DNA of 64,000 nucleotides from a virus (IMGVR_UViG_3300007352_000001:62001-126000), one strand, 5' to 3'; positions 7,570 through 26,904 are shown, counted from the first letter of the stretch. A program made the numbers and translations. The notes: generated from the letters alone by a model not told the origin.

Positions 7570-9578
7570 GTACGCGACGCGCAGACGCTCAAACCCGACA
7601 GATCATCGAACGCGAGGCCGCTCAGGCGGGGATCGACCCCGACCTGTTGGAGGCGATCTACAACCAGGAGTCGAGCGCGAACCCGTTCCAGGAAGCGCGG
7701 ACCGACACCAACGGCAAGCTCTCCTACGGGCCGTTCCAGATCCAGCACGCGCGAGCGATCGACCAGGGGTTCTCCGGCAATCCGAATGAGCTGGTGCCCA
7801 ACCCGCTCTACGGCAATCCGAACTACCCCGGCGCGCCGCAGTTCGTGAAGCGCCTGGACGCGTTGGATACGAACATCCACTTCGCGGCGCTCGCCATCAA
7901 CGACAATCAGGCCCGGTGCAGCGGTGATCCGCAGTGCCTTGCGGCCGGCTACAACTGCCCGGCCTGTGCCCGTGGCGGGGCTGACGGCAACTATGGGGCT
8001 GCCCAGATCTACTCGAACAGCGTGATGAAGCACTACGCTGGGATCAAAGGCGGCACGTACACCGCGGACAACGTCAACCCGCCCGGCAATCACCGGCGCT
8101 ACACTCCGAATCGTCCTGGCGGGCCGGGTGACGAGCCGATCGACCCTGCGCAGTTGGAGTTCGTCTGCAAAGCGGATCTTGACGAGGACCTCTTTCCCGA
8201 CGGCGCGCCGCTGCCACCAAACCCGAACCACCCTACCTTCCAGTTCACGGTTGGCGCGCTGCTCACCGCCGAGGGCGAGCCCACCGGCGGCTTCGATCTC
8301 ACCCCCACGCGCCCGCAGTACATCCAGTACTTCGAGTACGTCGACAACATCGGCGTGTGGTCGGACCAGTTCACGTTGCGGATCTTCGATCCGAGCTGGG
8401 ACATTGTCGCCGAGAACGAAGTGCTCTCGGCGATCCGCACGGCGAACACCGAGAACCCACAGGTCGGTGGGGATTCGCGTACCACGCGGCAGATCTTCGG
8501 GTTCGAGAACTGCATCATGAGCTGGGGCTACACCGCCGCGCCCGAGCGCACGCTGAACCAGATGCTGCGCACTGACGGGCTCTGGTCGCGCAACCATGCC
8601 GGGGTCGTGCTGGAGTACTCGCCGCGCTTCCTCGGCTTTGGGGTCGAGATCACGCTGAGCGGCCAGTCGAACGAGTCAGTGCAACGCCTCACCGCGAAGT
8701 CGCGCACCTGGCCTGGGCAGATTCAGCGGTCCGGCACCACGATCTCCGACATCGTACAGCAGCTCTGTGATGAGAACGGCTGGGGCTCGTGCATCTTGCC
8801 GACGCAGCCGCTCACCCTGCACAACGAGCCGCTCAAGTTCGACCAGGCGCAGATGGATGACCTCTACTTCATCCAGCACGTCCTGCGTCCGTTGGCGGTC
8901 GCTGCGCAGAACCCTTCGTTGACGGGCTTCCTCGCGCACTACGACTCGCGCAACAACGTCCTGCACTTCCACCCGCCGATGTTCTCCAAGCTGGCGCGTC
9001 ACTACACGTACGCGCGGCAGCGGCTCGGTGCGGTGATCAGCTTCCAGCCGCAGGTGAACCCCGCGATGATCGTGGCCCTTGGTGGGCACCGCATCGACTT
9101 TGGGGGCCTCGATGACGAGACCAAGGAACCGTTCACGGACTTCGTCACCGATCGCGACCTGCCAGACGCGCCGATCCTCGGGCCAGTGGGACCGCCCGAC
9201 GAGATCACGCTCAGCACGCAGAAGTTTCTCATGGGCCTCACCTCGTCCTACCCGAAGAAGGACCTGGCGAAGATCGAGGCGAAGGCCATGTACGAGACGA
9301 TGCGGTGGTCGACCGTCGAGTCGACGCTGGTCGTCGTCGGAGACCCGACCATCCGCGCAGGGCAGGTAGTGCGCGTGACGGTCTTCAGCAAGAACGGCGA
9401 GCCGCACTACACGAGCGGGCTCTACCTCATCAAGGAGGCACGACACGTGATCCAAGGTGGTGAGTACACGACCACGCTCTCGCTCCTGCGGAACGCGTAC
9501 ACGGGAGAGGATTCGTCCACGGTCGGGAACCTCGGCCAGGTCCTCTTCGGTGACCAGGTCTTCAATCGGGTGCGCTGA
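7566..9578 (+). CDS. Baseplate hub protein with N-terminal lytic transglycosylase (SLT) domain
   Basis: 670 residues from ATG 7566 in an ATGA overlap; a longer in-frame extension to 7425 lies inside gp53 and is rejected. Residues about 5-180 look like an SLT lytic transglycosylase: AGIDPDLLEAIYNQESS supplies the catalytic Glu in the ES motif, and LSYGPFQIQ matches the GxxQI turn. Cys pairs near residues 115-138 may form a disulfide loop. From about residue 220 the protein resembles gp27/late-control-D hub domains (DQFTLRIFDPSWDIV; later a YTSGLYLIKEARHVI strand). The enzyme would cut peptidoglycan as the tail enters. The T4 hub keeps its lysozyme in gp5, so the position of the domain differs here. 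Confidence 0.8.
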   Translation: MSTRRADAQTRQIIEREAAQAGIDPDLLEAIYNQESSANPFQEARTDTNGKLSYGPFQIQHARAIDQGFSGNPNELVPNPLYGNPNYPGAPQFVKRLDALDTNIHFAALAINDNQARCSGDPQCLAAGYNCPACARGGADGNYGAAQIYSNSVMKHYAGIKGGTYTADNVNPPGNHRRYTPNRPGGPGDEPIDPAQLEFVCKADLDEDLFPDGAPLPPNPNHPTFQFTVGALLTAEGEPTGGFDLTPTRPQYIQYFEYVDNIGVWSDQFTLRIFDPSWDIVAENEVLSAIRTANTENPQVGGDSRTTRQIFGFENCIMSWGYTAAPERTLNQMLRTDGLWSRNHAGVVLEYSPRFLGFGVEITLSGQSNESVQRLTAKSRTWPGQIQRSGTTISDIVQQLCDENGWGSCILPTQPLTLHNEPLKFDQAQMDDLYFIQHVLRPLAVAAQNPSLTGFLAHYDSRNNVLHFHPPMFSKLARHYTYARQRLGAVISFQPQVNPAMIVALGGHRIDFGGLDDETKEPFTDFVTDRDLPDAPILGPVGPPDEITLSTQKFLMGLTSSYPKKDLAKIEAKAMYETMRWSTVESTLVVVGDPTIRAGQVVRVTVFSKNGEPHYTSGLYLIKEARHVIQGGEYTTTLSLLRNAYTGEDSSTVGNLGQVLFGDQVFNRVR

Positions 9579-10258
9579 TGTCGTTGAGCAGCCTTTATCC
9601 CTACCACGTCGCGCTCACGCGCAACGTCCGCCAAGCGCTCGTACCTGCTTCGGGTTCGACGGTGGAGATCTTTGTCTCTGGTACCGGCGTGTCCAAGCAG
9701 CTCTACAGCGATCCAGACGGGCAGATCCTGCTTGATCAGCCGTTCCCGGTCGACATCGACGGGGAAGCGAATCTCTGGATCCAGCCAGGGCGCATTCGCG
9801 TCGTCGCGCGCCTCGATCCCGTGCACGAAGAAGTGTGGGAAGACGAGGTCTGCGACTGCGATTCGATCCCAAGCCAGCCGAGCCCGATCACCGGCCTCTT
9901 GAAGAACGAGGTCGAGGTCGAGATCGTCGGCACGACGATCAACGTTCCGTCGCTGCTGGTCGCGAACACCCAAGGCTACGGCGTGACCTGTCTGGTGACC
10001 TCGCAGATCACCGGCACGCTCACCGGCTTCTACCTCGGTCTCGCGAGCCCGGCCGGCATGTTGCAGGCCTTCTCGAAGCTCGGACAGGTCGGTCTGGCAT
10101 CAGGCCAGAAGACGGGCACCAAGGACATCGCGATCAACAGCCCCTGGAACCAAGCCAACGGCGGCGATGCCGTGATCACGGCCGTCAACGGCTCAGGAAC
10201 CGGTGGGACGGTGCTCTGCACCTACTGGTACCTGCAGCTGGAAACCACGGTGGGGTGA
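9578..10258 (+). CDS. Hypothetical baseplate/fibre-attachment protein
   Basis: 226 residues, TGATG overlap with the hub gene. The N-terminal 95 residues (PYHVALTRNVRQAL, GSTVEIFVSGTG) look like a small Ig-like attachment domain containing a CDC motif. The rest is a Gly/Thr-rich beta fold ending TVLCTYWYLQLETTVG, typical of phage tail appendages. No signal peptide, unlike the next seven genes. Exact role unknown; a connector between baseplate and appendages is inference. Confidence 0.6.
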   Translation: MSLSSLYPYHVALTRNVRQALVPASGSTVEIFVSGTGVSKQLYSDPDGQILLDQPFPVDIDGEANLWIQPGRIRVVARLDPVHEEVWEDEVCDCDSIPSQPSPITGLLKNEVEVEIVGTTINVPSLLVANTQGYGVTCLVTSQITGTLTGFYLGLASPAGMLQAFSKLGQVGLASGQKTGTKDIAINSPWNQANGGDAVITAVNGSGTGGTVLCTYWYLQLETTVG

Positions 10259-10261
10259 CGC

Positions 10262-10972
10262 ATGCGTACATGGGTGGCGGTGGTAGTGACGGTGGTGTTG
10301 GCAGCAGGTGCGTACGCACAGGACCCGCCGTGCCTGACGCCGTTCGGCTTCAACAACAACTGTCAGTTCATTCCGGGGGCTCCGCTGATCGCTGACTCGA
10401 CCTCGTCGGCGCGGTTCCTTCCCGGTGGCGCAACGCACTCGATTGACTTCGATGCGCTCTCGCTCTCGCACGACGGCTCGCAATGCACGGGGCCAACCGA
10501 TGTCGAGCTGAACAGTGGGCCGCACGACTTCACGATCAACTGCAACGATCACGCAGACTCGATCGTCGGCGCGAGCATTGGCATGCCGACGGGATGGGAT
10601 GGGGGCTCGGTCTCGTTCGAGATGTTCATCGTCTCCAACGACCCGGTCCCGACCGGTGTGTACTACTGGGACTTCGTGTGCGGCTGCGTCGCAGACGGCG
10701 ATGTGGTGAGCAGCTCGATCTACAGTGTCTCCGACTCGATCGACGACTTCGTGCGCATCCAGCTCGACATCACCGACGAGTGGACGGTGCGCATGGGGCA
10801 TACGGGGCTCGTGACCTGCGCCGGCACGTGTGAGGGCGGGCAGATGCTCTTCTGGCAAGCGCGGCTAAATGCGCCAGAGACGACCGCAACGCCCTGCGAA
10901 GACGTCGGCATTTTGAACATCAAGCTGCGCTACAACGTGTCGGGCGCATTCGATCCGATCCCGACGCCGTAA
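10262..10972 (+). CDS. Secreted beta-sandwich protein (signal peptide) in tail operon
   Basis: 236 residues beginning MRTWVAVVVTVVLAAGAYAQ, a textbook Sec signal peptide with AYA-Q cleavage. The mature part is a Cys-containing beta-sandwich with the aromatic strand pattern VYYWDFVCGCVADGD and NIKLRYNV at the end, like domains seen in phage appendages. The start is three bases after the preceding stop and spacing is operon-like. A cytoplasmic virion protein should not need a signal peptide, so either it is exported or the fibre is assembled unusually. First of seven such genes. Confidence 0.65.
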   Translation: MRTWVAVVVTVVLAAGAYAQDPPCLTPFGFNNNCQFIPGAPLIADSTSSARFLPGGATHSIDFDALSLSHDGSQCTGPTDVELNSGPHDFTINCNDHADSIVGASIGMPTGWDGGSVSFEMFIVSNDPVPTGVYYWDFVCGCVADGDVVSSSIYSVSDSIDDFVRIQLDITDEWTVRMGHTGLVTCAGTCEGGQMLFWQARLNAPETTATPCEDVGILNIKLRYNVSGAFDPIPTP

Positions 10973-11001
10973 GCGCGGCTGGGCTGGTGGAGGTGGTGGT
11001 G

Positions 11002-11664
11002 ATGAAGCGATGGCTCATGGTGGCGCTCGTCCTCGCCTGGGCGAGTGTCGCCCAGGCGGGGCAGGTGCACTTCCTGCCGCTCGGCTCCTTTGTGCGTGCG
11101 GGGGTCTGCGCGACCGACGGTGTGACGTCGTGCGCGTCGGCCGCGGACTGCTCCAGCGGTACCTGCCAGCTGAACGCCGGGTGCAGCAAGCAGCGGGTGA
11201 TCGGGACGAAGTTCCCGGTGGTCAGCATGCAATGCACCGCGACAGGCATCCAGGAGTTCTTCTGGGAGTTCGTCACGCCGCCAGACATGCCAGCGAGCGT
11301 TGTTGCGCAGGTCTATTTCCACACGGCAGCCACCACCGGCGCGGTCTGTTTCGACGCGACGGTCACCATCATGGACCACAACCAATCAGTCCCGTTGCTG
11401 ACCACGGCATTGGATCCGACCCCAGATGTCATCGCGTCAGGGTCTGGCAACCCGTCGATCTCGCTGCCGGCAAACCAGCTCTACCAGTACAGCCAGACGC
11501 TCACGCCGTACCGGCGCTCCAACGACGGCGACGGGAGCGGCAACTGCTCGGCGACCAACTGCCGGAGCCGGTACGCGATTCTGCGCCTCGCGCGCAAGAA
11601 CAGCGGCTGTGCCGGCAACGTCGCCAGCGACGTGTTCGTCGACGGAGTGGGCTTCACCTACTGA
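11002..11664 (+). CDS. Secreted Cys-rich protein (signal peptide) in tail operon
   Basis: 220 residues from ATG 11002, which has GGAGGT seven bases upstream; a GTG at 10987 lies before that site. The signal peptide MKRWLMVALVLAWASVAQAG ends in AQA-G. The next segment, CATDGVTSCASAADCSSGTC, has a repeated Cys spacing common in secreted proteins of delta-like bacteria. The remainder is beta-rich with SRYAILRLARKNSGC near the end, the same GDxxxLxxCR-like C-terminal strand found in the neighbouring secreted genes. Function unknown. Confidence 0.62.
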   Translation: MKRWLMVALVLAWASVAQAGQVHFLPLGSFVRAGVCATDGVTSCASAADCSSGTCQLNAGCSKQRVIGTKFPVVSMQCTATGIQEFFWEFVTPPDMPASVVAQVYFHTAATTGAVCFDATVTIMDHNQSVPLLTTALDPTPDVIASGSGNPSISLPANQLYQYSQTLTPYRRSNDGDGSGNCSATNCRSRYAILRLARKNSGCAGNVASDVFVDGVGFTY

Positions 11665-11672
11665 GGTTGTTT

Positions 11673-14600
11673 GTGACGCGCGCGTGGTGGGTTAGCGTCC
11701 TGCTTCTGATCTCGGTGCAGGCGGCGGTGGCACAAACACCGACCGCAACGCCAGGCGTGTGCCCTGGGGATTGCAACCACGACGGCGTGGTGACCATCGC
11801 CGAGAAGGACCAAGCGATTGCCATCATCAACGGCGCCGACCTCTCCACGTGCCCAGCGGCCGACGTCAATGGGGATGGGCGCGTCCGCGCGAACGAGATC
11901 ACGATCATCATCAACACGATCACCAACGGCCAGTGCGGGCCGCGGGTTGGCCCCCAGCTGTTGCACAACACGCCGACGCCGACGATCGCCGTCACCTGTC
12001 CGTGCGATTGCGACAGTAACGGCATCGTCACCGAGTCCGAGAAGGACATCGCCGTCGACATCATCAACGGGATCCGTCCGCTCACCGACTGCCCGCAGGC
12101 AGACGTGAACCAAGACGGCCAGGTGCGCGCGAACGAGATCACGCAGTGCATCAACGCGATCGTCAGCGGCCCGTGCGCGCTGCCGCGGTACCTTCCCGGC
12201 TGCGCCGGTGACTGCAACAACGACGGCCTGGTCGTGCAGTCGGAGATTCAGACCATGACGGACATCGTGAACGGTCTCCGGCCGTTCAGTGACTGCCCGA
12301 ACGGGGATGGCAACGGCGACGGTCAGATCCGCGCGGCCGACATCACGATCGCGATCAACGCGCTGAACTACAGCTGCGCCTACGACGACCCGCCGCGGCT
12401 CTATTTCTCGCTGCCGCCCCCAACCGGCACGCCGACGCCAACCGTCGTGCCGACTGCCTACGTCGTCCCGGTCCTGATCGGTCACACGAAGACGCCGACG
12501 CCGTCCCTGGCAATCGTGGTCAGTACGCCGACACCGTTCTTCACCTTGACGGGCACGCCGACTGCCACGAGCACGCCAACACCGACAGAGATCATCTGTG
12601 GCAGCTACAGCGACGTCGTCATGGACGACGACCCGCGCGTCTACTACTTGCTCGACGAACCGAGCGGCGCGACGATCGCGAAGGACCGCATGCACCGGCA
12701 TGACGGGCTCTACGCGGCGACCGACATCGCGTTCGAGGAACCGGGCTGTTGCGTGGGGCAGGCGACGCCAGAGCCCACGCCGACGCCCGGTACTCCGTTC
12801 TTCGCCCACGGCTGCTACACCGGCGACAACACCGATGACCGCGACATTGCGGTTGGCTTCCGCCCCTCGCTCGTGTGGCTCGGCGAAGCGACGGTAGCCA
12901 ACGGCAACACCAACAAGATGTCCTACCGCGACCGGACTCACGCAGACGGCGAGTCGGGCGTCTTGCAGACTGGCCTCGGCAACGGAAACCAGACCAACGC
13001 GATCCAGTCCTTCGGTGACACGACCTTCCAGATCGGCACTTCGACGCTGGTCAACGGCCTCGGGCGTCCGTACTGCTGGGCGGCGTGGCAAGAGGCGCCC
13101 GACTACATGGAAGTCGGACAGTTCGCCGGTGATGCGGCTCCGAACCACCAGATCCCGACCGGCTTCACGCCGGATGTAGCGGTGGTGCATCCAGTGGTCA
13201 GCACCATCTTCAACCGCATCGGAACACCTTTCCTGCGCACGACGGCGATGGGCACGGGAGATTTCTCCTGCGTGTGGGCGAACGCGAGCGCCATTGAGTG
13301 CAAGGACGGTGGCATCACCGCACTCCTCAGCTCGCCATTCACTGGCTTCTCGATCTCGAACTTCGGACCGGTGTGGCCACTCAACCACATCGGCGGTGAG
13401 CATCACTACGCCGTCTTGAAGGAGCACACGAACTATCTCGACTTCGGCATCTACACGGGCGACGGGCTGATCGGCGGCAACACGCAGACGATCACCACTG
13501 ACTGCCCGGCGGTCGCCGCCGTCTTCATTCGCGGCGTGCCGAGCAACAACACCTGCTCGATGTGGCGCTCCTCGTCGATGGAGACGCCGTACGTCACGCA
13601 CGCGGGCTTCGCGATGGGCGTGAACCAGCCAGGTGGGAACGCGGGCGGTATCCGTCCACTCGCCGGCAACACGGGCGAGTTCACCATCGAGAAGGGCAGC
13701 TCGTCACCGGACGCAGATTGCAACGTCAACAACACCACCTACTTCTGGTGGGCGATGTGTGAAGGGCCGAGCCCGACGGCGACGCCGACCGTCACCATCA
13801 CGCCGACGCCGACCCACACTGGCACGCCGACCGACACGCCGAACCCGTCGTTCACGCAGGTCTGTGAATCGCGCAACAACGCGGCTGCGGCCGGCACGGG
13901 CTGGACCGTCGACACCGGCACCGGCACGGTCGTGACCGGGTACAACACCACCGGCCCATCGAACGTCTTGAAGCTCCAGAACTTGGGCTTCGCGATCCCG
14001 CCGGGCTCGACCATCCTCGGCATCGAGGTCGACATGGGCGGCGGCGGGCCACGCAACGGGCTCACGTCGAGCTTCCTGCCGGTCACTACCGTCTGCGACT
14101 CGTGGACGACCTCGCCGCGCGACACGATCGTGCAGCTGCTCGACGCAAATGGTGATCCGGTCGGGGACAACAAGGCCACCGGTTCCAGTTGGCCTCCAAC
14201 CGGGAACAGCGTCCTCTTCCCAGATGGCTACGGCGGGGCCACGGACCTCTGGGGCTCGACGTGGGACGCGGCCACGATCAACGACACGAGCTTCGGCGTA
14301 CAGGTGCAGGTCGACTGGGCTTCGTCGAACGACGAAACCGACTGCGACCAGTACTGGACGGTGGAGTTCGCTGACCCAGACGACAAGCCTGACATCAGCG
14401 CTGGCTTGGCGAACATCACGGTCTGCTACGAGGGCATCGCCCCCACGGCGACCGAGACCCCAACACCGTCGTCGACGCCTACGCCTACCCCGACCGGCAT
14501 GGGCTGCTCGACCTACTCGTTCGACGTCGGGTTCGAGTGCCTGACCACGTTCACCACCACCGCCAGCGGCGGCTCGGTGGATTGGGGTGGTGACTGCTCG

Positions 14601-15062
14601 ACGGCAATCTCGGCGAGCGTCAGCTCAGGGGCTGCTGGGACGACCTATCTCTTGAAGATTGCCGGCGGCACGCTCACGGCCGGTGATCCAGTGCCTGGCA
14701 GCGCGACCATCGACGGGATCCGTCTGACCTCTGGCATGGGCTTCACGCACTCCGACGAGTTCTGCGAGCCAATCATGTGGGACGCGGCACCGCAGGATAA
14801 CGTTGTACGCCTGGTCAACGCCGCCGGCACGGTCGTCGGCACTGACAAGGGCAACGACGCGACGATCATCCAGGGGACGATCTACGGCGGGCTCGCAGAC
14901 GACTGGTCCGCCAGCCTCACCGGAGCAGACTTTGCTGGTGATGACTTCGGCTTCGCGTTCCAATCGACGTTCGATGCGACCACCAACACCGCTGACGACT
15001 GCGGCGGCACGCGTGGGGTCGTGTTCAGTACCACGACCATGGAGGTCTGTTGGCACGAATGA
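11673..15062 (+). CDS. Large secreted protein: three dockerin-like repeats, Thr-Pro linkers, fibre-type domains
   Basis: 1129 residues from GTG 11673 (GAGG upstream); the longer open frame back to 11010 is antiparallel noise over the previous gene. Residues 1-20 form a signal peptide (VSVLLLISVQAAVAQ). Residues 29-234 hold three dockerin-like calcium repeats (GDCNHDGVVTIAEKD paired with DVNGDGRVRANEITII, and two variants). Thr-Pro linkers at about 249-309, 697-726 and 922-944 separate a short LamG-like start (309-362), a domain of the DUF7483 type found in tail appendages (about 369-696; GFRPSLVWLGE) and two copies of a beta-sandwich with a YGG-DxWG signature (727-921, 944-1129). Host-like secreted architecture is fused to fibre-like domains. 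Its TGA overlaps the next ATG. Confidence 0.72.
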   Translation: MTRAWWVSVLLLISVQAAVAQTPTATPGVCPGDCNHDGVVTIAEKDQAIAIINGADLSTCPAADVNGDGRVRANEITIIINTITNGQCGPRVGPQLLHNTPTPTIAVTCPCDCDSNGIVTESEKDIAVDIINGIRPLTDCPQADVNQDGQVRANEITQCINAIVSGPCALPRYLPGCAGDCNNDGLVVQSEIQTMTDIVNGLRPFSDCPNGDGNGDGQIRAADITIAINALNYSCAYDDPPRLYFSLPPPTGTPTPTVVPTAYVVPVLIGHTKTPTPSLAIVVSTPTPFFTLTGTPTATSTPTPTEIICGSYSDVVMDDDPRVYYLLDEPSGATIAKDRMHRHDGLYAATDIAFEEPGCCVGQATPEPTPTPGTPFFAHGCYTGDNTDDRDIAVGFRPSLVWLGEATVANGNTNKMSYRDRTHADGESGVLQTGLGNGNQTNAIQSFGDTTFQIGTSTLVNGLGRPYCWAAWQEAPDYMEVGQFAGDAAPNHQIPTGFTPDVAVVHPVVSTIFNRIGTPFLRTTAMGTGDFSCVWANASAIECKDGGITALLSSPFTGFSISNFGPVWPLNHIGGEHHYAVLKEHTNYLDFGIYTGDGLIGGNTQTITTDCPAVAAVFIRGVPSNNTCSMWRSSSMETPYVTHAGFAMGVNQPGGNAGGIRPLAGNTGEFTIEKGSSSPDADCNVNNTTYFWWAMCEGPSPTATPTVTITPTPTHTGTPTDTPNPSFTQVCESRNNAAAAGTGWTVDTGTGTVVTGYNTTGPSNVLKLQNLGFAIPPGSTILGIEVDMGGGGPRNGLTSSFLPVTTVCDSWTTSPRDTIVQLLDANGDPVGDNKATGSSWPPTGNSVLFPDGYGGATDLWGSTWDAATINDTSFGVQVQVDWASSNDETDCDQYWTVEFADPDDKPDISAGLANITVCYEGIAPTATETPTPSSTPTPTPTGMGCSTYSFDVGFECLTTFTTTASGGSVDWGGDCSTAISASVSSGAAGTTYLLKIAGGTLTAGDPVPGSATIDGIRLTSGMGFTHSDEFCEPIMWDAAPQDNVVRLVNAAGTVVGTDKGNDATIIQGTIYGGLADDWSASLTGADFAGDDFGFAFQSTFDATTNTADDCGGTRGVVFSTTTMEVCWHE
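12421..12590 (+). repeat. Degenerate ACGCCGACG tract encoding a Thr-Pro linker
   Basis: Imperfect ACGCCGACGCC-type triplet repeats encode Thr-Pro runs between the dockerin-like repeats and the LamG-like start. Similar tracts recur at 13772-13845, 14445-14500, 18361-18435, 19085-19245, 20480-20580 and 21520-21585. They are coding and could promote recombination between the paralogous genes. Confidence 0.7.
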
Positions 15063-17050
15063 GCTGGCAGGTGGCGGTAGCCGGAGTGGTGTGCTTTTGG
15101 GCGGCAGCTGTGGGCGCTGGGGAAGTGCCCCTGCTCGCCGCCCGTGCACAAGACCCGGTCAACACGCCGGCCCCGCGCGTCCTGCGCTCGAACCCCGATC
15201 AACGCTACTTGGGGGTCGAGTTCGGCGGCACGACCGACACGTGCACCATCTTCGAGTTCGAGCTGCCCCGCGCCTACGGCACGACGGTGGACGGCCAGTG
15301 GAGCGCCCGCCTCGGCTACTTCAGCTGCGGGACCAACTGCAGCACAGTGGGAGAGTCCATCGTCGACACGACCAACGTGCCGCGGTTCCAGTTTTCCTCG
15401 ACTTGTATCGGCCCCGGCGACAACTACGAGAGCGCCACACTAACGGCAGGAACTGCGTTCAACGCCGAGGCCGTCGCGGGCGAGAACCAGCTCGTCGAGT
15501 ACACGGCGACGCAGACCAACTGGTTTGTCGAGACGGGCTGCGACGAAGGCGACACGGTGCTCGTGCAGCTGTGCCGCCTCGGCAGCGTCGACAGCAACAA
15601 CGATCTCTTCACGCTCACGGGCGTGTCGTTCTCGTTCGTCGAGAACCCAGATGCCACGCCAACGGTGACGCACACCTTCACGCCGACTAACACGGCAACC
15701 GCGACGCCGACGCACACCTTCACCCCGACGGCCACCGCGACCGTGACGGACACGGTCACTGCTACGGCCACCGAAACCGCGACCGACACTCCCGAACCCG
15801 TGACCGCAACGCCGACCGCGACGGTGGATCCGGAACAGGGTCAGCTGTTCTTCAAGGGACTGACCTGGACCACCGGCCAGGCGATCTTCACCACCGACGT
15901 ACAAGGCTCGAACTCCGACGCCAATGCGCGCAAGTTCCTGCCAGTCGGGATTCGGGTGCAGAATCTCTACGTCTCGTGCGTGGGCGGGCCAGGCGTCGGC
16001 AAGACGCTGACGGTCGGGATCATGAAGAACAACGCGCTGATCACTGGGTCGACGTGCGTTCTCGCAGGCGCTGGGACCGGTGACGGGGTCTCACGGTGCG
16101 ATGTCACGTTCCCGAGCCCGGACTCGACCTTCGCGTTCGCCGCCGGAGACCGGATCACGATTGACGCGACACAGACCGACTCTGGCTCGACCAGTCAGTT
16201 GTGCAACGTGTCCATCTACTACAAAGACAACGCGGGGACCGCGGAGCAGGACGCGCTGGTGTCTGGTGGCGGCAACTCGTTGAACCTTGCCGCGTCCACG
16301 ACGTACTGCGGGGCGTGGGACAACAACCCCGGCGGTCCGGAGAGCACGCTCTTCAAGTGCGGATCGCTCAGCGCGGACCACAGTCAGTGGCTCTTGGCTC
16401 GCGCAGGCACCTTGTCGGCGCTCAGCTTCAACGTCAACGGGTACACGGAGACCGCCGACTGGGTTGCTCAGACCGACGCGGGGACGACCGACTTGAGCGG
16501 GCAGATCACCAGCGTCGTCCTCAACATCACCGACACGGCCTGCACGACCAACTGCGCGGTCGCGGCCGGCGGCTTCTTCCGGTTGCAGCACACGCAGAAC
16601 ACGAGCAACTCCAACTCCCGGTTCCGCAACTGGATGCTGGCGATCAGCGGGATGGGGCAGACGTTCTGGTTCCAGAACAGCACCGTCAACGGCACAGTGT
16701 ACGGCGGTCCGTTCGGAACCACGTCCAGCGCGAACACGATCTCAGCTGCTTGGCCGGTCGCCAAGCGCTCGACGATCCAGAACTTGATCTTGAAAGGCTG
16801 GGGGTCGTTCAACAACGCGGCAACCGCCACCGTGCTCACGGGGACGGACCCCGCCAGCATGAGCGCGACCGGATTGACGTGCTCGACCAGTGCGAGCGGG
16901 TCCGACCTGACCTGCACGAATACCTCGCGGCACATTGGCGTGGATGAGGGGGCCTACTTGTCCATCCAAGTGGATGCGGTCGGAACCCCGAAGCCGTTCC
17001 ATGCGTCGTTCGAGCTGTCCGCTGATCCGACGGAGACGCCAACTCCATGA
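15059..17050 (+). CDS. Secreted two-domain appendage-like protein with long Thr-Pro linker
   Basis: 663 residues from ATG 15059, which overlaps the previous stop (ATGA); a TTG at 15050 also sits near GGAGG. The signal peptide is MSWQVAVAGVVCFWAAAVGA. Residues about 30-195 are a Cys-containing beta-sandwich ending DTVLVQLCRLGS. Residues 198-257 are a Thr-rich linker (THTFTPTNTATATPTHTF). Residues 258-660 are a second unit beginning EQGQLFFKGL with NLYVSCVGGPGVGKTLTV and AGAGTGDGVSRCD; the same unit recurs in the 18240 gene, so these are paralogues. Export plus an extended, potentially O-glycosylated linker is inference. Confidence 0.68.
   Translation: MSWQVAVAGVVCFWAAAVGAGEVPLLAARAQDPVNTPAPRVLRSNPDQRYLGVEFGGTTDTCTIFEFELPRAYGTTVDGQWSARLGYFSCGTNCSTVGESIVDTTNVPRFQFSSTCIGPGDNYESATLTAGTAFNAEAVAGENQLVEYTATQTNWFVETGCDEGDTVLVQLCRLGSVDSNNDLFTLTGVSFSFVENPDATPTVTHTFTPTNTATATPTHTFTPTATATVTDTVTATATETATDTPEPVTATPTATVDPEQGQLFFKGLTWTTGQAIFTTDVQGSNSDANARKFLPVGIRVQNLYVSCVGGPGVGKTLTVGIMKNNALITGSTCVLAGAGTGDGVSRCDVTFPSPDSTFAFAAGDRITIDATQTDSGSTSQLCNVSIYYKDNAGTAEQDALVSGGGNSLNLAASTTYCGAWDNNPGGPESTLFKCGSLSADHSQWLLARAGTLSALSFNVNGYTETADWVAQTDAGTTDLSGQITSVVLNITDTACTTNCAVAAGGFFRLQHTQNTSNSNSRFRNWMLAISGMGQTFWFQNSTVNGTVYGGPFGTTSSANTISAAWPVAKRSTIQNLILKGWGSFNNAATATVLTGTDPASMSATGLTCSTSASGSDLTCTNTSRHIGVDEGAYLSIQVDAVGTPKPFHASFELSADPTETPTP
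15653..15835 (+). repeat. Thr-rich linker repeat (about 60 codons)
   Basis: Degenerate repeats of ACC/ACG/ACT with CCG, GCG and GTG encode about 60 residues of alternating Thr with Pro, Ala and Val. It is the densest Thr tract outside 22120-22560 and offers many potential O-glycosylation positions. Confidence 0.7.
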
Positions 17051-17691
17051 TGCGTGCCATGTTGGTTCTCGCCTTTGTGCTCGCGGCTCCGGCCGCAGTG
17101 GCGGATCTCTATCTCCGTGGGGGTGAACTGCGGCCAATGACGCTCAATCCAGCCGCGGTGACGCTCGATGAGTCTGGCACCCACACGATCAAAGTCATCG
17201 ACTTCTCCGGATCGGCGCAGACCTGCGCCATGACCCATGCGCTCTTGCCGGCGACCTACCCGAAGTTCGCCCGCTTGGGTGTGGAGCTGACGTTCGTGGC
17301 GCGATCGACCTCGACGGCGCTCTCGCAGTTCGTGATTGGTGGGGTCTGTCAGCACGAGCCGGCCGACTTCCCGTTTGCGACTTTCACCACCGGTGGGCTC
17401 ACGTCGGTTGGGTTCACGAGCCCGTCGGTGGGGGACGTGTTCACGCACGAGTTCACCTTCCCGGTCACCAACTGCCAGTCCGGCGACACGGTGAGCTTGG
17501 CGGTGTGCCGGCACGGGGAGCTGGACGACAACCCGGCCCTGATTGGTCTTGTCGATGTGCGTTTTCGATTCCCGTACATCACGGCCACGCCGACGGTCAC
17601 GTTCACGCCGACCAACACGGCCACGGTGACGGATACCCCAACGGCCACGCCAACGGTGACCGCGACCGCGACGGCCACGCCGACGACCTAA
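17047..17691 (+). CDS. Secreted single-domain beta-sandwich protein with Thr-Pro tail
   Basis: 214 residues starting inside the previous stop (ATGATGA). The signal peptide is MRAMLVLAFVLAAPAAVA. One beta-sandwich follows, ending CQSGDTVSLAVCRHGE and LVDVRFRFPY, the same GDxVxLxxCR strand as its neighbours. The C-terminal 35 residues are a Thr-Pro/Ala tail (TFTPTNTATVTDTPTATPT) that ends at the stop, so in this gene the linker is terminal, not between domains. Unknown function. Confidence 0.65.
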   Translation: MMRAMLVLAFVLAAPAAVADLYLRGGELRPMTLNPAAVTLDESGTHTIKVIDFSGSAQTCAMTHALLPATYPKFARLGVELTFVARSTSTALSQFVIGGVCQHEPADFPFATFTTGGLTSVGFTSPSVGDVFTHEFTFPVTNCQSGDTVSLAVCRHGELDDNPALIGLVDVRFRFPYITATPTVTFTPTNTATVTDTPTATPTVTATATATPTT

Positions 17692-17703
17692 AGGAGAGGC
17701 TTG

Positions 17704-18237
17704 ATGAAGTGGTGGTGGGGGCTGGTGGTGGGAGTCCTCCTGGCGAGTCAGACCGTCTACGGCACCATGGCGGTCACGCTCTATGCTGGGTCGGCGACGC
17801 TTCCAGCGACGACTGCAGCGACGATCACGACGATCACCGGCGCCGCGCGCACCTTCGCGCGCGTCGACTACGCCGCTGGTGCGACCTCGTGCGCGGATTG
17901 GCACTTCCAGCTGCCGCTCGAATACGTCGCCGGCAACGCGCTGGAGCCCGTGCTCGACTACTACACCGCGGCCAATGACGCGGACGTGAGCGTGCGCTAC
18001 AGCATCATCTGCGCAGCCCAAAGCGAGGCGTACCAGTCGGCGTCGTTCGTCAACGGCTCGATCGAGGCGCTCACCTCGGGGCCGTCCGATGGTGTGGTAC
18101 AGCGTGTGTTCGGCGGCTTCACCGAGATCAACGAGACGGGCTGTGACCCGCTCGATCACGTCGTGCTTCGCATTTGCCGAATCAGTGACTCGAACTCCGG
18201 TCGGTTCTCGATCGTGAAGGCTCGGGTGCGTTTCTGA
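17704..18237 (+). CDS. Secreted single-domain beta-sandwich protein
   Basis: 177 residues; ATG 17704 follows AAGGAG. The signal peptide is KWWWGLVVGVLLASQTVYG. The mature part (WHFQLPLEYVAGNALEP, then DHVVLRICRISDS and IVKARVRF) closely follows the jelly-roll pattern common in appendage proteins of phages, where WxFxLPxxYxxG opens the domain. It is therefore the clearest case of a fibre-type domain carrying a signal peptide. It lacks a Thr-Pro tract. Confidence 0.66.
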   Translation: MKWWWGLVVGVLLASQTVYGTMAVTLYAGSATLPATTAATITTITGAARTFARVDYAAGATSCADWHFQLPLEYVAGNALEPVLDYYTAANDADVSVRYSIICAAQSEAYQSASFVNGSIEALTSGPSDGVVQRVFGGFTEINETGCDPLDHVVLRICRISDSNSGRFSIVKARVRF

Positions 18238-18239
18238 TC

Positions 18240-21200
18240 ATGCATCGAGTCGGCCCGCCTCCCATCATCTGGATTGTCGGTCTCGCCGTCCTCGCGGCGT
18301 GCTTCTACTTCTACCAGCCATCGGAGGGGCAGCTGGCCCCGGCGCAGTTCGTGTTCAACACCGACACGCCGACGCCGACCGTCACCAACACCCCCACGCA
18401 GACACCGACGCCGACGGCCACGCCAACGCCGGATCTGGTGAGCAATCTCCAGGCTCACATCCAGTTCGACGAGACGCCGGTAGTGACCACGAGCTTTGCC
18501 GACAGCTCGGGCAACGGGAACGCGGCGGTCTGCAGCCCGTCCTCTCAGTGCCCAGACGCTGGCTTCCCCGGCCAGTTCGGCTCAGGCGTGAACTTCAACG
18601 CTGCACAGAGCGACCAGCTCGCGATCGGCATCGCGGCCGATCCGTCGCAGTACACGATCGCGGCGTGGGTCTATCTCCTCAGCACGGGCTCGCAGGACAT
18701 CCTCGTCCGGACCAACAGCAACGGGCCGGTGAGCGACTTCTCGCACTTCCTGCGCACGGACAGCTCGGGCAAGTTCTCGCACTACGTCGACACTGGCACG
18801 AACACGTACTCGGCGACGGCCGCGGGCGCAGCCGGGACTCACCAGTGGTATTGCGTCGTCGGCACTTCAGACGGCACGTACGTCCGGCTCTACATTGACG
18901 GGGCGCTGGAGACCGAGACCTCGATCCCTGGCGCGTTCCAAGGCTTGTGGAGCGGGGGCGATCGCTGGGCCATCGGGCCGGCCGCAGGCCTCTCAACCAG
19001 CAACTTCGCCAGCCTCATGGACGATGTGCGGATCTACGATCGCGCGCTGCGGACCGATGAAGTGGCGCAGCTCTGCGCGGTGCCAGCGACGACGCCGACG
19101 CCATGGCCAGGCCCGCAAGAGATCCCAAATACGCCGGTGGGCACCTTCACCTTCACACCAACCTTCACGGCGACGGTCACGCACACCCCCACGGTGACGG
19201 CGACACCAACGATCACGTTGACGCCGACCCCGACGCTCGCGAGCCCCGAACAGGGCCAGTTCTTCGGGAATGTGCGCTCGAACACGAATGAGACACCTCT
19301 CATCGGATTCTCTGGCCCGACGGCGTTCTCCAACCAGTCCAATCCGAAGCGTCTCCCCCTCGCTGTTCGAGTGCGCAACCTCTACGTCAACTGCCGCGAC
19401 GGAGGGCCTGGTGCATCCAAGACGCTGACCTTCGCGCTGCTGAAAAACGGGAGTGTCGTCACCGGCTCCGACTCGTGCGTGCTCGCAGGCGCCGGCACCG
19501 GTGACGGTATCTCGCGGTGCGACCAGACCTTCGCGAACACGTCGGACTTCGACTTCGCTGCCGGAGACATCATCGCCGTCCAAACCACGCAGTCGGCCTC
19601 GGCGTCCACCGGACAGACTTGCCACTTCGCGATGTACTACCGGCAGGCTGGTGATGCAGGCGAGCAGGACGCGATGATCATGGGACACGACGGGACCGGC
19701 AGCATTGGCGCGGGGACGTCGTATTGCGGCGGCTGGTCTGACGCGACAGCGACCTCGCCTGTCAATCCCACGTACATCTGCGGGCAAGCGACGTCGGCGC
19801 ACGCCCGGCACGTCATCCCGCGTGCAGGGACTCTCACTGGGCTCGCGATGCGCAGCCCAGCGTACAGCAACACGGGCGCGTTTACGATTTTGGTGAACGA
19901 CACGGTAGATGCGACTGACCTCTCCGTCTCGTTGACGTCCGGTACCTTGTCCGTGTCGGATACGACGTGCACGACCAACTGCAGCGTTGACCAAGCGGAG
20001 TTGATGCATCTGGAGATGGTGCAAAGCGGCGGCTCCTCGGGCTCCACGAGCGCGCGTAACTGGATGATCTCGCTCGACGGCATGGGGCAGGTGTACCAGG
20101 GTAGCAACGACGTCTTCGGCAACACGGCCAACGTCAACTCGCACATGGGACCATCCGGCGCTGCGGTGGCGGGTAGTGCACAAGGCGTGTGGCCAGTCGC
20201 CAAGCGCTCCACGATGCAGAACCTGTGCGTCCACATGACCAGCGGGGACAAAAACGGCCAGGTCATCGTCACTGCGCGCAAAGGCACTGATCCTGCCAGC
20301 CTGTCCAACACCGCCGTGACCTGCACGACGGGCAGCGGCACGGGCGAGCAGTCGTGCTGTGACACTACGCACCACGTCGGCGTGGAAGAGGGCGAGTACG
20401 TCGAGGTGCACGCGCAGTTCATCGGGACGCCGTCCACGCCGCGACCGATCGCCATGGGCATGGAAATGTCTGGGGATCCGACCGACACGCCGACGCAGAC
20501 GCCGACACCAACTGGGACTCTGCCAACCTCGACGCCGACGGCCACGGTCACGCACACGTCGACGCCGACGTTCACGCCGGGCGGGACGCAGCCGAACTGG
20601 GCGAGCGGATGCTTTGACGGGAACGCCGCTGACAACCGGCAGATCACGACCGGGTTCCAGCCGGACTGGGTCTTCCTGTCGTGGGACCACTCAATCGGTT
20701 CCAGCCGCATCCCGGTGTTCCGGTCGTCTAGCTCACCCTTGGGCGATGCCTCGTGCGACACGTTCACTCTGCCGGGAGATGATTGCGCCACGACGAACAA
20801 CATCCAAGCGCTCAATGCGACAGGGTTCGAGGTCGGCACGGCCTCGAACGACGGCTCGTTCAACTACTGCTACTTGGCGCTGCAAAACCTGGCTGGCCAT
20901 GTGCAGGAAGGGCGCTACGTCGGCACGGGCACGGACAATCGAGCCATCGACGTCGGCTTCGTACCTGACGTTGTCCTCGTGTACAACGTCACCAACGTGG
21001 TCGTCGACATCTGGAGCTTCCGGACGGCCGACATGCCGTCCGATTTCTCCATGCGCTTGAACCAAGCCTCCGGCTTCGCCGAGACCGACCGCATCCAAGA
21101 TTTCTTGTCCATCGGCCTCGGCGACTCGGTCGACGGGTTCGAGGTCGGGACGGTCATGAACACGAGCAGCCGAGTGTACTACTGGGTGGCTCTCAAGCAG

Positions 21201-23213
21201 CTCGACAACTTCATGGAGTTCGGCCACTACACTGCCACTGGGGCCGATGACTTCCACATCGACACTGGCAGCTGCTCACCGGACATGGTTCTCATCGCCG
21301 CGGACGAGTCAGGCACCGTGGCCGAGTGCCAGCGGCACGCCTGGGACGACGCGCTGTGGCCGATGCCGCTGTCGCAGTTGGTTTCGGGTTTTACGGTCGA
21401 CAATCGGATCTTGAGCATCGACAGCAGTCCGGACGGGTTCACTGTTGATGCCATCTGTAACGACACTGACGCGGTCAGCGACTACCACTGGCTGGCGTTC
21501 TGTGCCGAGGAAGACTTCCCCACCCCCACGCCGACCGGCACGCCCACCGTGCCGCCCGCGACCAGCACGCCAACGGTCCCGTCGTGTGTGACCGTGTCGA
21601 GTTCGACGATGGCCACGGTCTCGACCCTGGCCGGTCCAGGGGACGTTGACTGGACCAACCAGGCGGATTTGAGCGATGGGTGTAATACCGAGACTACCGA
21701 GGCTACGTTCCCCCAGTTCACCAGCGGCAACACTGCGCAGCTGCGCGGGCAAGCATATTCTGGTCTCGGTGCCATCCCGGACGCAGCGTCGATCACCGGC
21801 ATCAAGCTCGACGTCACGCGCCGGCTGGTTGGTCCTGGAGTATCAGCCGCGACCGACCAGCTCATCAAGCTGATCCGGCCTGATGGGAACTACACGTCGA
21901 CCAACAAGGCGGACCTGATCACGCAATGGCCGAGCACGTTGACGCTCAAGAGCTATGGCGGGCTCGCGGATACGTGGGGGCAGTCGTGGACTGGTGCGGA
22001 TGTGAAAGACCCCGACTTTGGTGTCGTCATCAGCGCCGAAGTCGCGCGTGACGATGGATCGAGTGCTGATGCGCTTGCCGAAGTCGACTGCGCGACGATC
22101 ACGATCTGCTACGACAACTCGGCGTCCCCGACGCCGGCTGGCTTGGTCCAGTACCACGTCACACCGGCCCCGAGTTTCACTGGCTCTCCCACCGCAACGC
22201 CGACGCCACTGCCCACGCCGTACGCGCAGGCGCAGTACAACCTGAACACGCCGACGGACACGGCCGCGCCGACCGGCACGCCGACCCCTGGGCCGTACTA
22301 CCCACCGCAGTACATGTTCAGCACTCCGGCGCCGACGGGGACTCCGACGCCTGACATCCCGGACGATTACGACCTGCCAACGCCGACGGCGCTGCCGCCG
22401 TCCACGCCGTACGCGCAGGCCCAGTACCTGTTCACGATGCCGCCGACCGTCACGCCGACGGCGATTGGCTCGCCAACGATCTTCATCCCGCCGCAGATCC
22501 TCTTCCAGACGCCGACCAACACGGTCGGTGCGGCCCCGACACCGACACCACTGGCCGAGATGATCTGCTCGGACGGTGGTAGCGTCGACCTCGGCGACAG
22601 CTACTGGACCAACCTCGCCGCGTTCGAGACGCAGCTGCAGCATCCAGCCCCGGTCAACAATGAACTGACGCTGGAAGCCTGGTTGCGGTTCGACCACGAT
22701 GAACTGAACAAGCCATGGATCGCACGCTGGAACAGCGACGACACGCAAGCCCAGTACGTGCTTCGCGTCTCGCCGACCACGGCTGGCGTCATCGAGTGCT
22801 GCGTGCACACCGACACCGGCACGCAGCCGCACTGTGTTGCCTCGCCGTCGGATGCGCTCCTGAACGACGGGCTGTGCCACCACGTGCTGTGCCGCTACAA
22901 CGACAACGTGGCGACCGGCAACGGGCTTGCGCTCTGGGTCGACGGCGTGAAGGTGGCGACCAACGCGACGGCAAAGGGTAACCTGTCGATCACTACACAG
23001 AAGACACGCGTCTTCTGCTACTCGGACAACCGCGACTGCCCGGAGAGCGAGATGTGTATCCAACACGTGGCGCTCTACGACTTCGCGGTCTCGGAGGAAC
23101 GGATCCTGAAGCATGCCCGCGCGTGCCGCTCGGGCTGCGTGCAGCCGACGCCTACGGTGACTCCGGCCGTGACGCCGACTACCCGCCGTGGTGGCCCGGT
23201 CCTCTTCCCATGA
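18240..23213 (+). CDS. Giant membrane-anchored multidomain protein: two LamG domains, Thr-Pro linkers, fibre-type domains
   Basis: 1657 residues. Residues 9-27 are a single membrane anchor (PIIWIVGLAVLAACFYFY) after a short basic N-terminus, so the bulk would face outward. Order: Thr-Pro linker (41-65); LamG/concanavalin-like domain (67-281; LYIDGALE, then DVRIYDRAL); linker; a unit paralogous to the 15059 gene (335-747; AGAGTGDGISRCD); linker; DUF7483-type domain (782-1092; GFQPDWVFLSWDH); beta-sandwich with SYGGLADTWGQSW (1117-1292); a 145-residue Thr-Pro linker with PYAQAQY repeats (1294-1440); second LamG (1442-1634; VQHVALYDFAVSEERI). LamG domains usually bind glycans. A surface adhesin or host-range factor is inference; a tail fibre is the alternative. 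Confidence 0.72.
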   Translation: MHRVGPPPIIWIVGLAVLAACFYFYQPSEGQLAPAQFVFNTDTPTPTVTNTPTQTPTPTATPTPDLVSNLQAHIQFDETPVVTTSFADSSGNGNAAVCSPSSQCPDAGFPGQFGSGVNFNAAQSDQLAIGIAADPSQYTIAAWVYLLSTGSQDILVRTNSNGPVSDFSHFLRTDSSGKFSHYVDTGTNTYSATAAGAAGTHQWYCVVGTSDGTYVRLYIDGALETETSIPGAFQGLWSGGDRWAIGPAAGLSTSNFASLMDDVRIYDRALRTDEVAQLCAVPATTPTPWPGPQEIPNTPVGTFTFTPTFTATVTHTPTVTATPTITLTPTPTLASPEQGQFFGNVRSNTNETPLIGFSGPTAFSNQSNPKRLPLAVRVRNLYVNCRDGGPGASKTLTFALLKNGSVVTGSDSCVLAGAGTGDGISRCDQTFANTSDFDFAAGDIIAVQTTQSASASTGQTCHFAMYYRQAGDAGEQDAMIMGHDGTGSIGAGTSYCGGWSDATATSPVNPTYICGQATSAHARHVIPRAGTLTGLAMRSPAYSNTGAFTILVNDTVDATDLSVSLTSGTLSVSDTTCTTNCSVDQAELMHLEMVQSGGSSGSTSARNWMISLDGMGQVYQGSNDVFGNTANVNSHMGPSGAAVAGSAQGVWPVAKRSTMQNLCVHMTSGDKNGQVIVTARKGTDPASLSNTAVTCTTGSGTGEQSCCDTTHHVGVEEGEYVEVHAQFIGTPSTPRPIAMGMEMSGDPTDTPTQTPTPTGTLPTSTPTATVTHTSTPTFTPGGTQPNWASGCFDGNAADNRQITTGFQPDWVFLSWDHSIGSSRIPVFRSSSSPLGDASCDTFTLPGDDCATTNNIQALNATGFEVGTASNDGSFNYCYLALQNLAGHVQEGRYVGTGTDNRAIDVGFVPDVVLVYNVTNVVVDIWSFRTADMPSDFSMRLNQASGFAETDRIQDFLSIGLGDSVDGFEVGTVMNTSSRVYYWVALKQLDNFMEFGHYTATGADDFHIDTGSCSPDMVLIAADESGTVAECQRHAWDDALWPMPLSQLVSGFTVDNRILSIDSSPDGFTVDAICNDTDAVSDYHWLAFCAEEDFPTPTPTGTPTVPPATSTPTVPSCVTVSSSTMATVSTLAGPGDVDWTNQADLSDGCNTETTEATFPQFTSGNTAQLRGQAYSGLGAIPDAASITGIKLDVTRRLVGPGVSAATDQLIKLIRPDGNYTSTNKADLITQWPSTLTLKSYGGLADTWGQSWTGADVKDPDFGVVISAEVARDDGSSADALAEVDCATITICYDNSASPTPAGLVQYHVTPAPSFTGSPTATPTPLPTPYAQAQYNLNTPTDTAAPTGTPTPGPYYPPQYMFSTPAPTGTPTPDIPDDYDLPTPTALPPSTPYAQAQYLFTMPPTVTPTAIGSPTIFIPPQILFQTPTNTVGAAPTPTPLAEMICSDGGSVDLGDSYWTNLAAFETQLQHPAPVNNELTLEAWLRFDHDELNKPWIARWNSDDTQAQYVLRVSPTTAGVIECCVHTDTGTQPHCVASPSDALLNDGLCHHVLCRYNDNVATGNGLALWVDGVKVATNATAKGNLSITTQKTRVFCYSDNRDCPESEMCIQHVALYDFAVSEERILKHARACRSGCVQPTPTVTPAVTPTTRRGGPVLFP
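22120..22560 (+). repeat. Long Thr-Pro/PYAQAQY linker repeats
   Basis: About 145 codons of Pro/Thr repeats, including PYAQAQY twice and variants such as PYYPPQY and FIPPQI, each followed by a hydrophobic strand and TPTPT. The periodicity suggests a semi-structured stalk just before the terminal LamG domain. Confidence 0.65.
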
Positions 23214-24607
23214 GCAACCTCCTGAACTCGTCCGTCCCTACGCAGCGACATCTGCGTGAGGTCGAACGACTCTTCCCGCATCTCTACGAGGGCACGGTCG
23301 AATACGTCAGCGACCCGATGAACCTCGGACGGATCAAGGTGCGCGTGCACGGCGTCAACGATCCCGACTCGCAGCGCACGCCGCCAACCTCCTTGCCCTG
23401 GTGTTACCCCTGTCACGCGCCAGGGTCGTTCCATGTGCCGGAAGTGGGCTCCACGTGTTGGGTCCTCTTCCGGCACGGGCTCTCGGACTACCCGGTCTAC
23501 TTGGGCGTCTGGCACGGGCAACTGAAGAAGCCGGTGGTGAAAGGCCGGCTGCCGGTTTTCTCGACGCCGGAGGCAAAGCCGACCAAGAACAACGCGGCCG
23601 ACCAGGTCCTCTCGACCTACCAAGGGCTTGGCGTGCCTGATGACCTCCGCTTCCACAACGCCGTCGCACCGCCGGCCCTGCCGGTCTACCAGATCCTCTC
23701 GGCGAGCGGAGGCCTCGCCAACTTCGCTGCCGGCACCTCGATCACCGTGCAGGACTCGACGTTCAACAACGGCACGTTCCGGATCCTCACTAACAACGGG
23801 TTCATCATGACCGTCGATGGGCCGCTCAACGAAGAGGACCTCTCGACGGCGACGATCGGGCAGATCCTCGTCCCACCAGCCTCGAACAACTTCACCTCGT
23901 ACTTGGAGCCGCCGGGCAACGAGTCGCCGCGGGAGTCGTACGATCTGAAGCAGTCGATCGACCCGACGGTGAAGGTGCACTGGCAGACGCCAAAAGGGGC
24001 GACCGCGTACAGCGTCGACGACGACGGGGAAGAACGCACGGCGATCGTCGATCGCATGGGGCAGGGGCTGCACCTGGTCGGGGCAGTCACCAGCTCTGCG
24101 AACCAGCACAACAAGGCACGGCGCCGCCGGCAAGAAGTGCGCGACGGTACCGGGCTCCCGGTCGACCAAGCCGTCGACGGCAAGGCGAGCGTCGAGCTGT
24201 ACGACCTCCTTGGCCAGTTCGTGAAGCTCATGTCCGACGGTGGAGGTAGTTGCATCGTCGAGATTCACGGGAAGGACGGCGCCTCGGGATTCTTCCGCAT
24301 CGCGCAGGATGGCATGCGGATCACAATCCGCTCTGATGCCGACTCGCAGATGGTGATGGACGAGTCGATCGTCATGCAAGCACAGGTCGACGGCAGCGGG
24401 CCGAAGCTCTCCCTCCTCTCCTCGGGAGTGGCGAAGCTGGAGAATCAAGCGGGTACCGCGTCGCTGACACTCGATCAGTCTGGGGGCTACGAGCTGAAGA
24501 ACAGCGCAGGCGCGCAGGTGACGGGGAGCCCGGCCGGCACGCTCGCGCTCAAGTCGAGTATCACCATCACGATCGACGCGCCGATCGTGCAGACCAACGG
24601 AGGATGA
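23210..24607 (+). CDS. Baseplate spike protein, gp5/gpV-like OB-fold with beta-helix
   Basis: 465 residues; true start ATG 23210 overlaps the previous stop, the upstream 52 codons belonging to another frame. Residues about 20-115 form the OB-fold of VgrG/gp5 proteins (YEGTVEYVSDPMNLGRIKVR, then PWCYPCHAPG and VPEVGSTCWVLFRHG). Residues 140-235 include an inserted beta-rich segment. The C-terminus (SGFFRIAQDGMRITIRSD, LTLDQSGGYELKN) is the repetitive triple beta-helix needle. No lysozyme domain is present, consistent with the lytic domain being on the hub. Confidence 0.83.
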   Translation: MSNLLNSSVPTQRHLREVERLFPHLYEGTVEYVSDPMNLGRIKVRVHGVNDPDSQRTPPTSLPWCYPCHAPGSFHVPEVGSTCWVLFRHGLSDYPVYLGVWHGQLKKPVVKGRLPVFSTPEAKPTKNNAADQVLSTYQGLGVPDDLRFHNAVAPPALPVYQILSASGGLANFAAGTSITVQDSTFNNGTFRILTNNGFIMTVDGPLNEEDLSTATIGQILVPPASNNFTSYLEPPGNESPRESYDLKQSIDPTVKVHWQTPKGATAYSVDDDGEERTAIVDRMGQGLHLVGAVTSSANQHNKARRRRQEVRDGTGLPVDQAVDGKASVELYDLLGQFVKLMSDGGGSCIVEIHGKDGASGFFRIAQDGMRITIRSDADSQMVMDESIVMQAQVDGSGPKLSLLSSGVAKLENQAGTASLTLDQSGGYELKNSAGAQVTGSPAGTLALKSSITITIDAPIVQTNGG

Positions 24608-24608: not shown

Positions 24609-24899
24609 GTGCCACCGAAAGCGCGCATGACGGACACGACGATTGGCCGTTGCACCGAGCACGGACAGCAGTCCGGCGTCGTCATGCTCGCCTCGTTTGA
24701 CGCGTTCACTGAAGGCCTGGGCGACGCCCGCATGACCGATACCGTGATGGCCGCGTGCGGGGACACGGGCACCATCATCAGCACGTCGCTGACCTCGTAC
24801 GTCAACGGGCTCGGCAGCGCCCGCCTCGGCGACACGTTCGTCGGCAAGTACTCGGGCACGATCGTCTTGGGGTCATTCACACATCTGGTGGGGGACTGA
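24609..24899 (+). CDS. PAAR-type spike tip protein
   Basis: 96 residues; GTG 24609 with GGAGG upstream. Two repeats of the form GDARMTDTV and GSARLGDTF, with short Gly/Thr strands (CTEHGQQSGVVML, CGDTGTIISTSL), match small PAAR-like proteins that cap the spike with a metal-stabilised point. Its place between spike and wedge genes supports this. Confidence 0.78.
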   Translation: MPPKARMTDTTIGRCTEHGQQSGVVMLASFDAFTEGLGDARMTDTVMAACGDTGTIISTSLTSYVNGLGSARLGDTFVGKYSGTIVLGSFTHLVGD

Positions 24900-26500: not shown

Positions 26501-26534
26501 GGTGTCTCCTTCCGCATATGGTGGATTGGTGAGT

Positions 26535-26817: not shown

Positions 26818-26904
26818 AAGTGTGCGAGCCTAAGCACACTTCTTCGCAAGTTGTCAACTGCGTACTTGCGCGCATGACACGGCGTGAGACGAAGGAGATC
26901 CCTC

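Follow-up and report, generated by a model that had tools for sequence, protein, structure and literature searches.

The cytoplasm is regarded as the place where tail fibres fold and assemble. The closest described exported proteins encoded beside phage tail genes are exclusion lipoproteins: the gene for Llp of phage T5 adjoins the receptor-binding protein gene, downstream of it, and putative exclusion lipoproteins of other siphophages are encoded downstream of gpJ (PMC9586334); the mEpimmI exclusion lipoproteins, for which phage exclusion has been demonstrated, are encoded inside a structural cluster (PMC11893012). Target proteins of phage diversity-generating retroelements carry no signal peptides, unlike the surface-displayed bacterial ones (PMC6199706). 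We describe here a block of seven consecutive genes (10262..23213, + strand), each with an N-terminal export signal, inside the tail operon of the virus record IMGVR_UViG_3300007352_000001 (IMG/VR; 241,426 bp), of which positions 62001–126000 were analysed (64,000 nucleotides, hereafter the window; coordinates are those of the window unless the record is named). The virus is a large, uncultured contractile-tailed phage, as judged from its genes for a major head protein, head maturation protease, tail sheath and tail tube. The literature on signal peptides of tailed-phage tail or virion proteins yielded no described counterpart. Because all seven products carry secretion signals and a distant relative has a similar run at the same place, it is probable that in these phages fibre-like proteins leave the infected cell and are not incorporated into the virus in the usual manner.

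Signals were assessed with a home-made score based on n-region charge, h-region hydrophobicity and the residues at −3/−1, calibrated on five secreted proteins of E. coli K-12 (7.7–8.9) and on 3641 internal in-frame starts of non-signal phage genes, 0.25% of which scored at least 7.2. All seven block products scored 7.3–9.4, that of 15059 only when started at a TTG further upstream; in the tail region 15 other genes had no signal or scored at most 5.0, which bears out the earlier note on this DNA in its claim of seven consecutive export signals. Outside the block 6.1% of the genes of this genome pass, so that the run of seven is not a matter of chance (about 3e-9 for seven passing genes in a row; 1e-6 across all positions). 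Features of signal peptidase I substrates (positive n-region, hydrophobic h-region, small residues at −3/−1) were found with the calibrated score in six of the seven products, in that of 15059 from the TTG start only. These six look cleavable, as had been claimed, by a score that is blind to the difference between a cleavable signal and a helix; the seventh, the 18240 product, fits either a signal anchor, as first described, or a lipobox. The pattern [LVI][ASTVI][GAS]C occurs there alone (LAAC, residues 18–21; none reported for the other six), and since LAAC is a textbook lipobox the protein may be a lipoprotein, not a plain anchor.

Disulfides form outside the cytoplasm, and a strong enrichment in cysteine therefore fits export, as support independent of the signals. 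Of 4159 residues in the mature block proteins 118 are Cys (2.8%), whereas the neighbouring tail genes encode 39 in 6564 (0.6%; Fisher p 1.6e-20); the exported genes of the relative introduced below are also enriched (2.1% vs 0.8%, p 5e-7). The block proteins would accordingly be candidates for disulfide bonding, and from their sequences actual export is highly probable.

The relative, IMGVR_UViG_3300000311_000002 (G002; 81.8 kb, 38% G+C against 65% in the window phage), was found with a two-sequence sheath alignment and has a sheath about 42% identical. In its operon the hub is followed by a homologue of 9578, then by four genes in a row with signals, the spike and PAAR; another two genes with signals close the contig. 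The signal-bearing genes encode LamG and DUF7483-like domains on TPT linkers. Both blocks thus lie between a hub-associated gene and the spike and encode exported LamG/DUF7483 proteins with TPT linkers; they differ in gene order, in proteins that are mostly non-orthologous, in G+C content and in the two genes after PAAR. Two tail-tube relatives (L081, L084) have the same operon order without the block, the spike following directly after the 9578-like gene, and two more distant ones (L088, L089) lack it too. The block is therefore an insertion at one site, which is conserved together with the type of cassette in two divergent phages and missing from others. Codon usage and G+C at third codon positions (GC3) of the block equal those of neighbouring tail genes; recent transfer from the host was considered and rejected, as both values match. 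An exported PQQ-like gene (27300 product, in the record's cluster at 25736–31062) is common to G002 and the window phage (E 4e-50). The block had no close relative in the viral collection searched; viral contigs yielded none with the spike, one paralogue, a three-paralogue alignment or the 400-aa module as queries, nor did tblastn of the 11673 and 18240 products against 50,697 phage records. In both phages small lipoprotein-like genes, possibly o-spanins, lie upstream of the tail genes (record 47832–48209; L034:8909–9424).

The tail operon begins with the tube (1436), the tape-measure region (3388), the hub (7566), a small gene (9578) and the seven block genes. It continues with a gp5/gpV-like spike (23210), PAAR (24609), gp25-like (25636), gp6/J-like (26905) and Tail_P2_I (28489) genes, and ends with a BW3TFN fibre-network protein (29403) and a 1965-aa DUF4815 protein (29997). 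The block was said to lie between hub and spike; the spike border holds, and on the other side a gene without a signal peptide separates it from the hub. The hub (gp27/gpD-like; 7566..9578, +) matches PHROG tail proteins (phrog_350, 2e-10; phrog_52, 6e-10), has no export signal and contains 8 Cys in 670 aa; the hub-associated gene that forms the left border (9578..10258, +; no signal peptide) has homologues in G002 (BLASTP 8e-17), L081 and L084. The right border is the spike (23210..24607, +; PF04717 3.7e-10; phrog_430 2e-13), followed by the PAAR spike tip (24609..24899, +; phrog_281 4e-4). The seven open reading frames are tightly packed, with successive gaps of 29, 8, −4, −4, 12, 2 and −4 nt, the last being the overlap into the spike. 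A scan of the block for internal promoters and terminators gave one and seven look-alike matches, respectively, no excess over shuffles. Between the gp25-like and gp6-like genes the operon is broken by two small − strand genes and two tRNAs (Lys, Tyr; 26001–26817, −). Right after the baseplate genes lies a fusion of GT4-type and GT9-type glycosyltransferases (36213–38453), possibly for surface or virion glycosylation; further on, an ARAGORN tRNA with a four-base anticodon (ctgg; 48444–48517, −) adjoins tRNA-Arg(cct) and may be a frameshift suppressor or a degenerate tRNA.

All block genes are on the + strand. The first (10262..10972) encodes 236 aa with 9 Cys and the signal MRTWVAVVVTVVLAAGAYA, next residue Q (score 9.4, with 0 of 2000 shuffles as high), and had no match in family profile searches. 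The second (11002..11664; 220 aa, 10 Cys) has the signal MKRWLMVALVLAWASVAQA, next residue G (score 8.9), and a predicted jelly roll (paralogue E 6e-17, profile E 3e-56). The third (11673..15062; 1129 aa, 35 Cys; signal MTRAWWVSVLLLISVQAAVA, next residue Q, score 9.0) carries TP-rich linkers and three dockerin-like modules (11763..12377), of which only the first, at residues 31–83, exceeds the Pfam cut-off (type I dockerin, PF00404 5e-10; 39.8 bits vs a curated cut-off of 22.9); its matches to DUF7483 (2e-5) and DUF7361 (3e-5) are each below cut-off. One of the dockerin-like modules is 81% identical to the product of a gene at record position 225243. The fourth (15050..17050; 663–666 aa from ATG 15059 or TTG 15050) combines an N-terminal beta-sandwich homologous to the 17047 and 17704 products, a TP linker and a module of about 400 aa common with the 18240 product (BLASTP 4e-80). 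Its signal, claimed before for the 15059 gene, is present from TTG 15050 (MARMSWQ..., score 8.6) and not from ATG 15059, where the n-region has no Lys or Arg.

The fifth (17047..17691; 214 aa, 4 Cys) has the signal MMRAMLVLAFVLAAPA(AVA), with the predicted cut after AVA (score 9.1), and a C-terminal TP-rich tail; the sixth (17704..18237; 177 aa, 4 Cys) has the weakest signal of the seven (MKWWWGLVVGVLLASQTVYG; score 7.3, 4% of shuffles as high). Both match the 15059 product (BLASTP 9e-9 and 1e-7, respectively), and the three are mutually homologous (1e-4 to 1e-9). The seventh, exported or anchored (18240..23213; 1657 aa, 40 Cys; N-terminus MHRVGPPPIIWIVGLAVLAAC with the lipobox LAAC, score 7.9), contains two LamG domains of the ConA-like lectin type (PF13385 1e-32; 113.7 bits, above cut-off), the module of about 400 aa, a DUF7483-like stretch and one further beta-sandwich module, and matches phrog_8510, a virion structural protein (1.5e-13), and an S-layer-domain protein (PDB 4qvs, 1.4e-7). 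The last gene before the spike ends in RGGPVLFP here and in RGNPIVFQ in G002 (L033 13343–16306 product), possibly a common motif seen in two sequences only.

Across the block the modules are thus LamG lectin, dockerin, DUF7483-like and beta-sandwich, set on TPT linkers; the beta-sandwich with the motif YGGxxDxWG is present in two copies in the 11673 product and also in the 18240 product. For the 11002 product AlphaFold predicts a jelly roll with moderate confidence (predicted local distance difference test, pLDDT, 72; predicted template modelling score, pTM, 0.70); its nearest solved folds, at low TM-scores, include the ligand-binding domains of Eph receptors, CBM35, PP2 lectin and further folds that bind ligands, and tail proteins are among its viral matches. 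The model of the beta-sandwich module, also of moderate confidence (pLDDT 73), matched generic viral beta-sandwiches only. As to the beta-sandwich or jelly-roll patterns first noticed in four products, those of 15059, 17047 and 17704 are homologous to one another and that of 18240 has LamG and beta-sandwich modules, the jelly-roll check by folding being confined to the 11002 family. This family is phage-wide: on the record, profile matches lie at 25.7 and 26.3 kb and, seven in number, at 220.3–225.2 kb, with a further, partial match at 151.3 kb. Its full-length members that pass the score have signals, and the members counted have six Cys each in the mature part (11002 itself ten), five being invariant over ten aligned members. 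At record 220351–225226 (L013:351–5226), outside the window, are seven exported paralogues of about 195 aa related to 11002, with one gene lacking a signal peptide between the first two; they are followed by the 225243 dockerin gene, which has a hydrophobic N-terminus and for whose product a genome scan gave no confirmed relative. A second exported cluster (record 25736–31062; L005) consists of two jelly-roll paralogues, a PQQ-like gene with a TPT tail (kept in G002) and a beta-helix gene with Cys-rich repeats.

We favour the explanation that the host exports the block products late in infection and that they act in exclusion, in or on the infected cell's envelope; to this we give somewhat less than an even chance. 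An inserted cassette of late genes would be expressed with the tail proteins, a coupling suggested by the compact operon; host Sec would move the products over the inner membrane, and their disulfides would form outside the cytoplasm. There, modules of lectin (LamG), dockerin and phage-fibre beta-sandwich type, strung on flexible TPT linkers, would bind, and so tether the proteins to, envelope glycans or receptors and other proteins, possibly cohesin-bearing host proteins, so that further phages and released progeny would fail to adsorb to the infected cell or its debris. Such coating is plausible, and exclusion proteins whose genes adjoin tail-tip genes are a precedent (PMC9586334, PMC11893012). 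In favour of the explanation stand the signals, which no neighbouring tail gene has, the Cys enrichment in both phages, the G002 block, the signals kept in the 11002 paralogues and the kinds of module; in addition, six of seven Binatia-type genomes (see below) have cohesin domains above cut-off, and no cohesin domain or partner was found inside the phage. Several points weigh against it. Known exclusion proteins are small lipoproteins, and Llp of T5 is expressed early (PMC9586334); the block proteins are large, are encoded in a late operon and have a lipobox in 18240 only. For the other six, nothing recognisable as a surface retention signal was found. The score, moreover, does not tell an N-terminal membrane helix (MalG 7.4, PdeC 7.2) apart from a cleavable signal.

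The products might instead be accessory host-like extracellular proteins (morons), that is, captured host adhesion or matrix proteins that affect how cells attach or aggregate, not phage adsorption; we consider this rather unlikely. In a genome scan with a dockerin alignment, the dockerin modules were closest to those of Candidatus Binatia and similar metagenome-assembled genomes (32–51% identity), which makes such bacteria a possible host. Secreted dockerin/TPT-linker proteins of Candidatus Binatia resemble the block in these modules. The beta-sandwich module, too, occurs in exported bacterial proteins of the phylum of a Binatia-type genome, and the phage has further exported clusters far from the tail operon. 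Against capture from such a host, the 11002 family was absent from seven Binatia-type and 297 same-phylum genomes (with a profile that recovers it in the phage itself), and the module of about 400 aa was not found in the seven; the DUF7483 match in that phylum carries no signal itself and sits in a phage-like-looking gene cluster, and the codon usage and GC3 of the block are those of its neighbours.

It is also unlikely, perhaps a shade more so, that appendages are assembled outside the cytoplasm, the proteins being exported, disulfide-folded in the periplasm and bound to the baseplate or neck at release, to become virion fibres without a cytoplasmic step. The block is co-directional and overlapping with hub and spike genes, its insertion site is identical in a divergent phage, and two of its module types recur in virion-type proteins without signals, one in the phage's own baseplate. 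The YGGxxDxWG beta-sandwich is found in the 1965-aa DUF4815 baseplate/tail protein (29997..35894, +; PF16075 1.7e-60; BLASTP to 18240 5e-10) and in tail tubular protein A of phage ctRVW222; a DUF7483-type protein is encoded in Synechococcus phage S-B68, a cyanophage, a few genes upstream of gp6 (QBP06135). All three differ from the block in having no signal peptide and in being poor in Cys (4/1965 aa, 5/653 and 13/1445, respectively). Fibre-type modules are thus present (LamG, phrog_8510, DUF7483-like and the beta-sandwich common with the DUF4815 protein), but no docking family was matched in the block proteins, in which the N-terminal signal is followed by a linker or domain. Ordinary baseplate and fibre genes without signals (Tail_P2_I, BW3TFN, DUF4815) lie downstream, the block therefore being additional to the ordinary tail gear, and L081 and L084 have the operon without it. 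It is quite improbable that part of the adsorption apparatus is made extracytoplasmically in this lineage, from Sec-exported, disulfide-bonded fibre-like proteins that reach maturity in the periplasm or on the cell surface and are added to the tail only at release; of the two readings in the earlier note, exported fibre-like proteins and a new mode of appendage assembly, the former is retained, on the strength of the signals, the Cys enrichment, the position kept in a divergent phage and the modules common with virion-type proteins. Very unlikely, finally, are remnant signals of host-secreted ancestry on ordinary fibres assembled in the cytoplasm, for although the block sits in the tail operon and its modules overlap with both host-secreted and virion proteins, signals kept so consistently, in seven genes, many divergent paralogues and G002, would not be expected of decayed remnants, and Cys is enriched in both phages.

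If export with an exclusion role, or assembly outside the cytoplasm, is true, some phages make a large investment in proteins that work beyond the cytoplasm and whose production is timed with that of the virion, and TPT-linked signal-peptide genes between hub and spike would be a marker for finding more of them. Either the periplasm would be a second assembly compartment, or the dying cell would be coated, shielding progeny and territory on a scale far above that of small exclusion lipoproteins. With the superinfection-exclusion lipoproteins Llp of T5, Cor, Rtp45 and mEpimmI the block agrees in being phage-encoded and exported, with genes beside tail-tip or receptor-binding genes or in the structural cluster (PMC9586334, PMC12685063, PMC11893012), here from the hub-associated gene to the spike. 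Llp/Cor-type lipoproteins are small, of a single domain, usually one per phage and, for Llp, early; the block, in contrast, comprises seven proteins of 177–1657 aa, several of them multidomain and mostly of signal peptidase I type, with a lipobox in 18240 only, encoded in a late operon.

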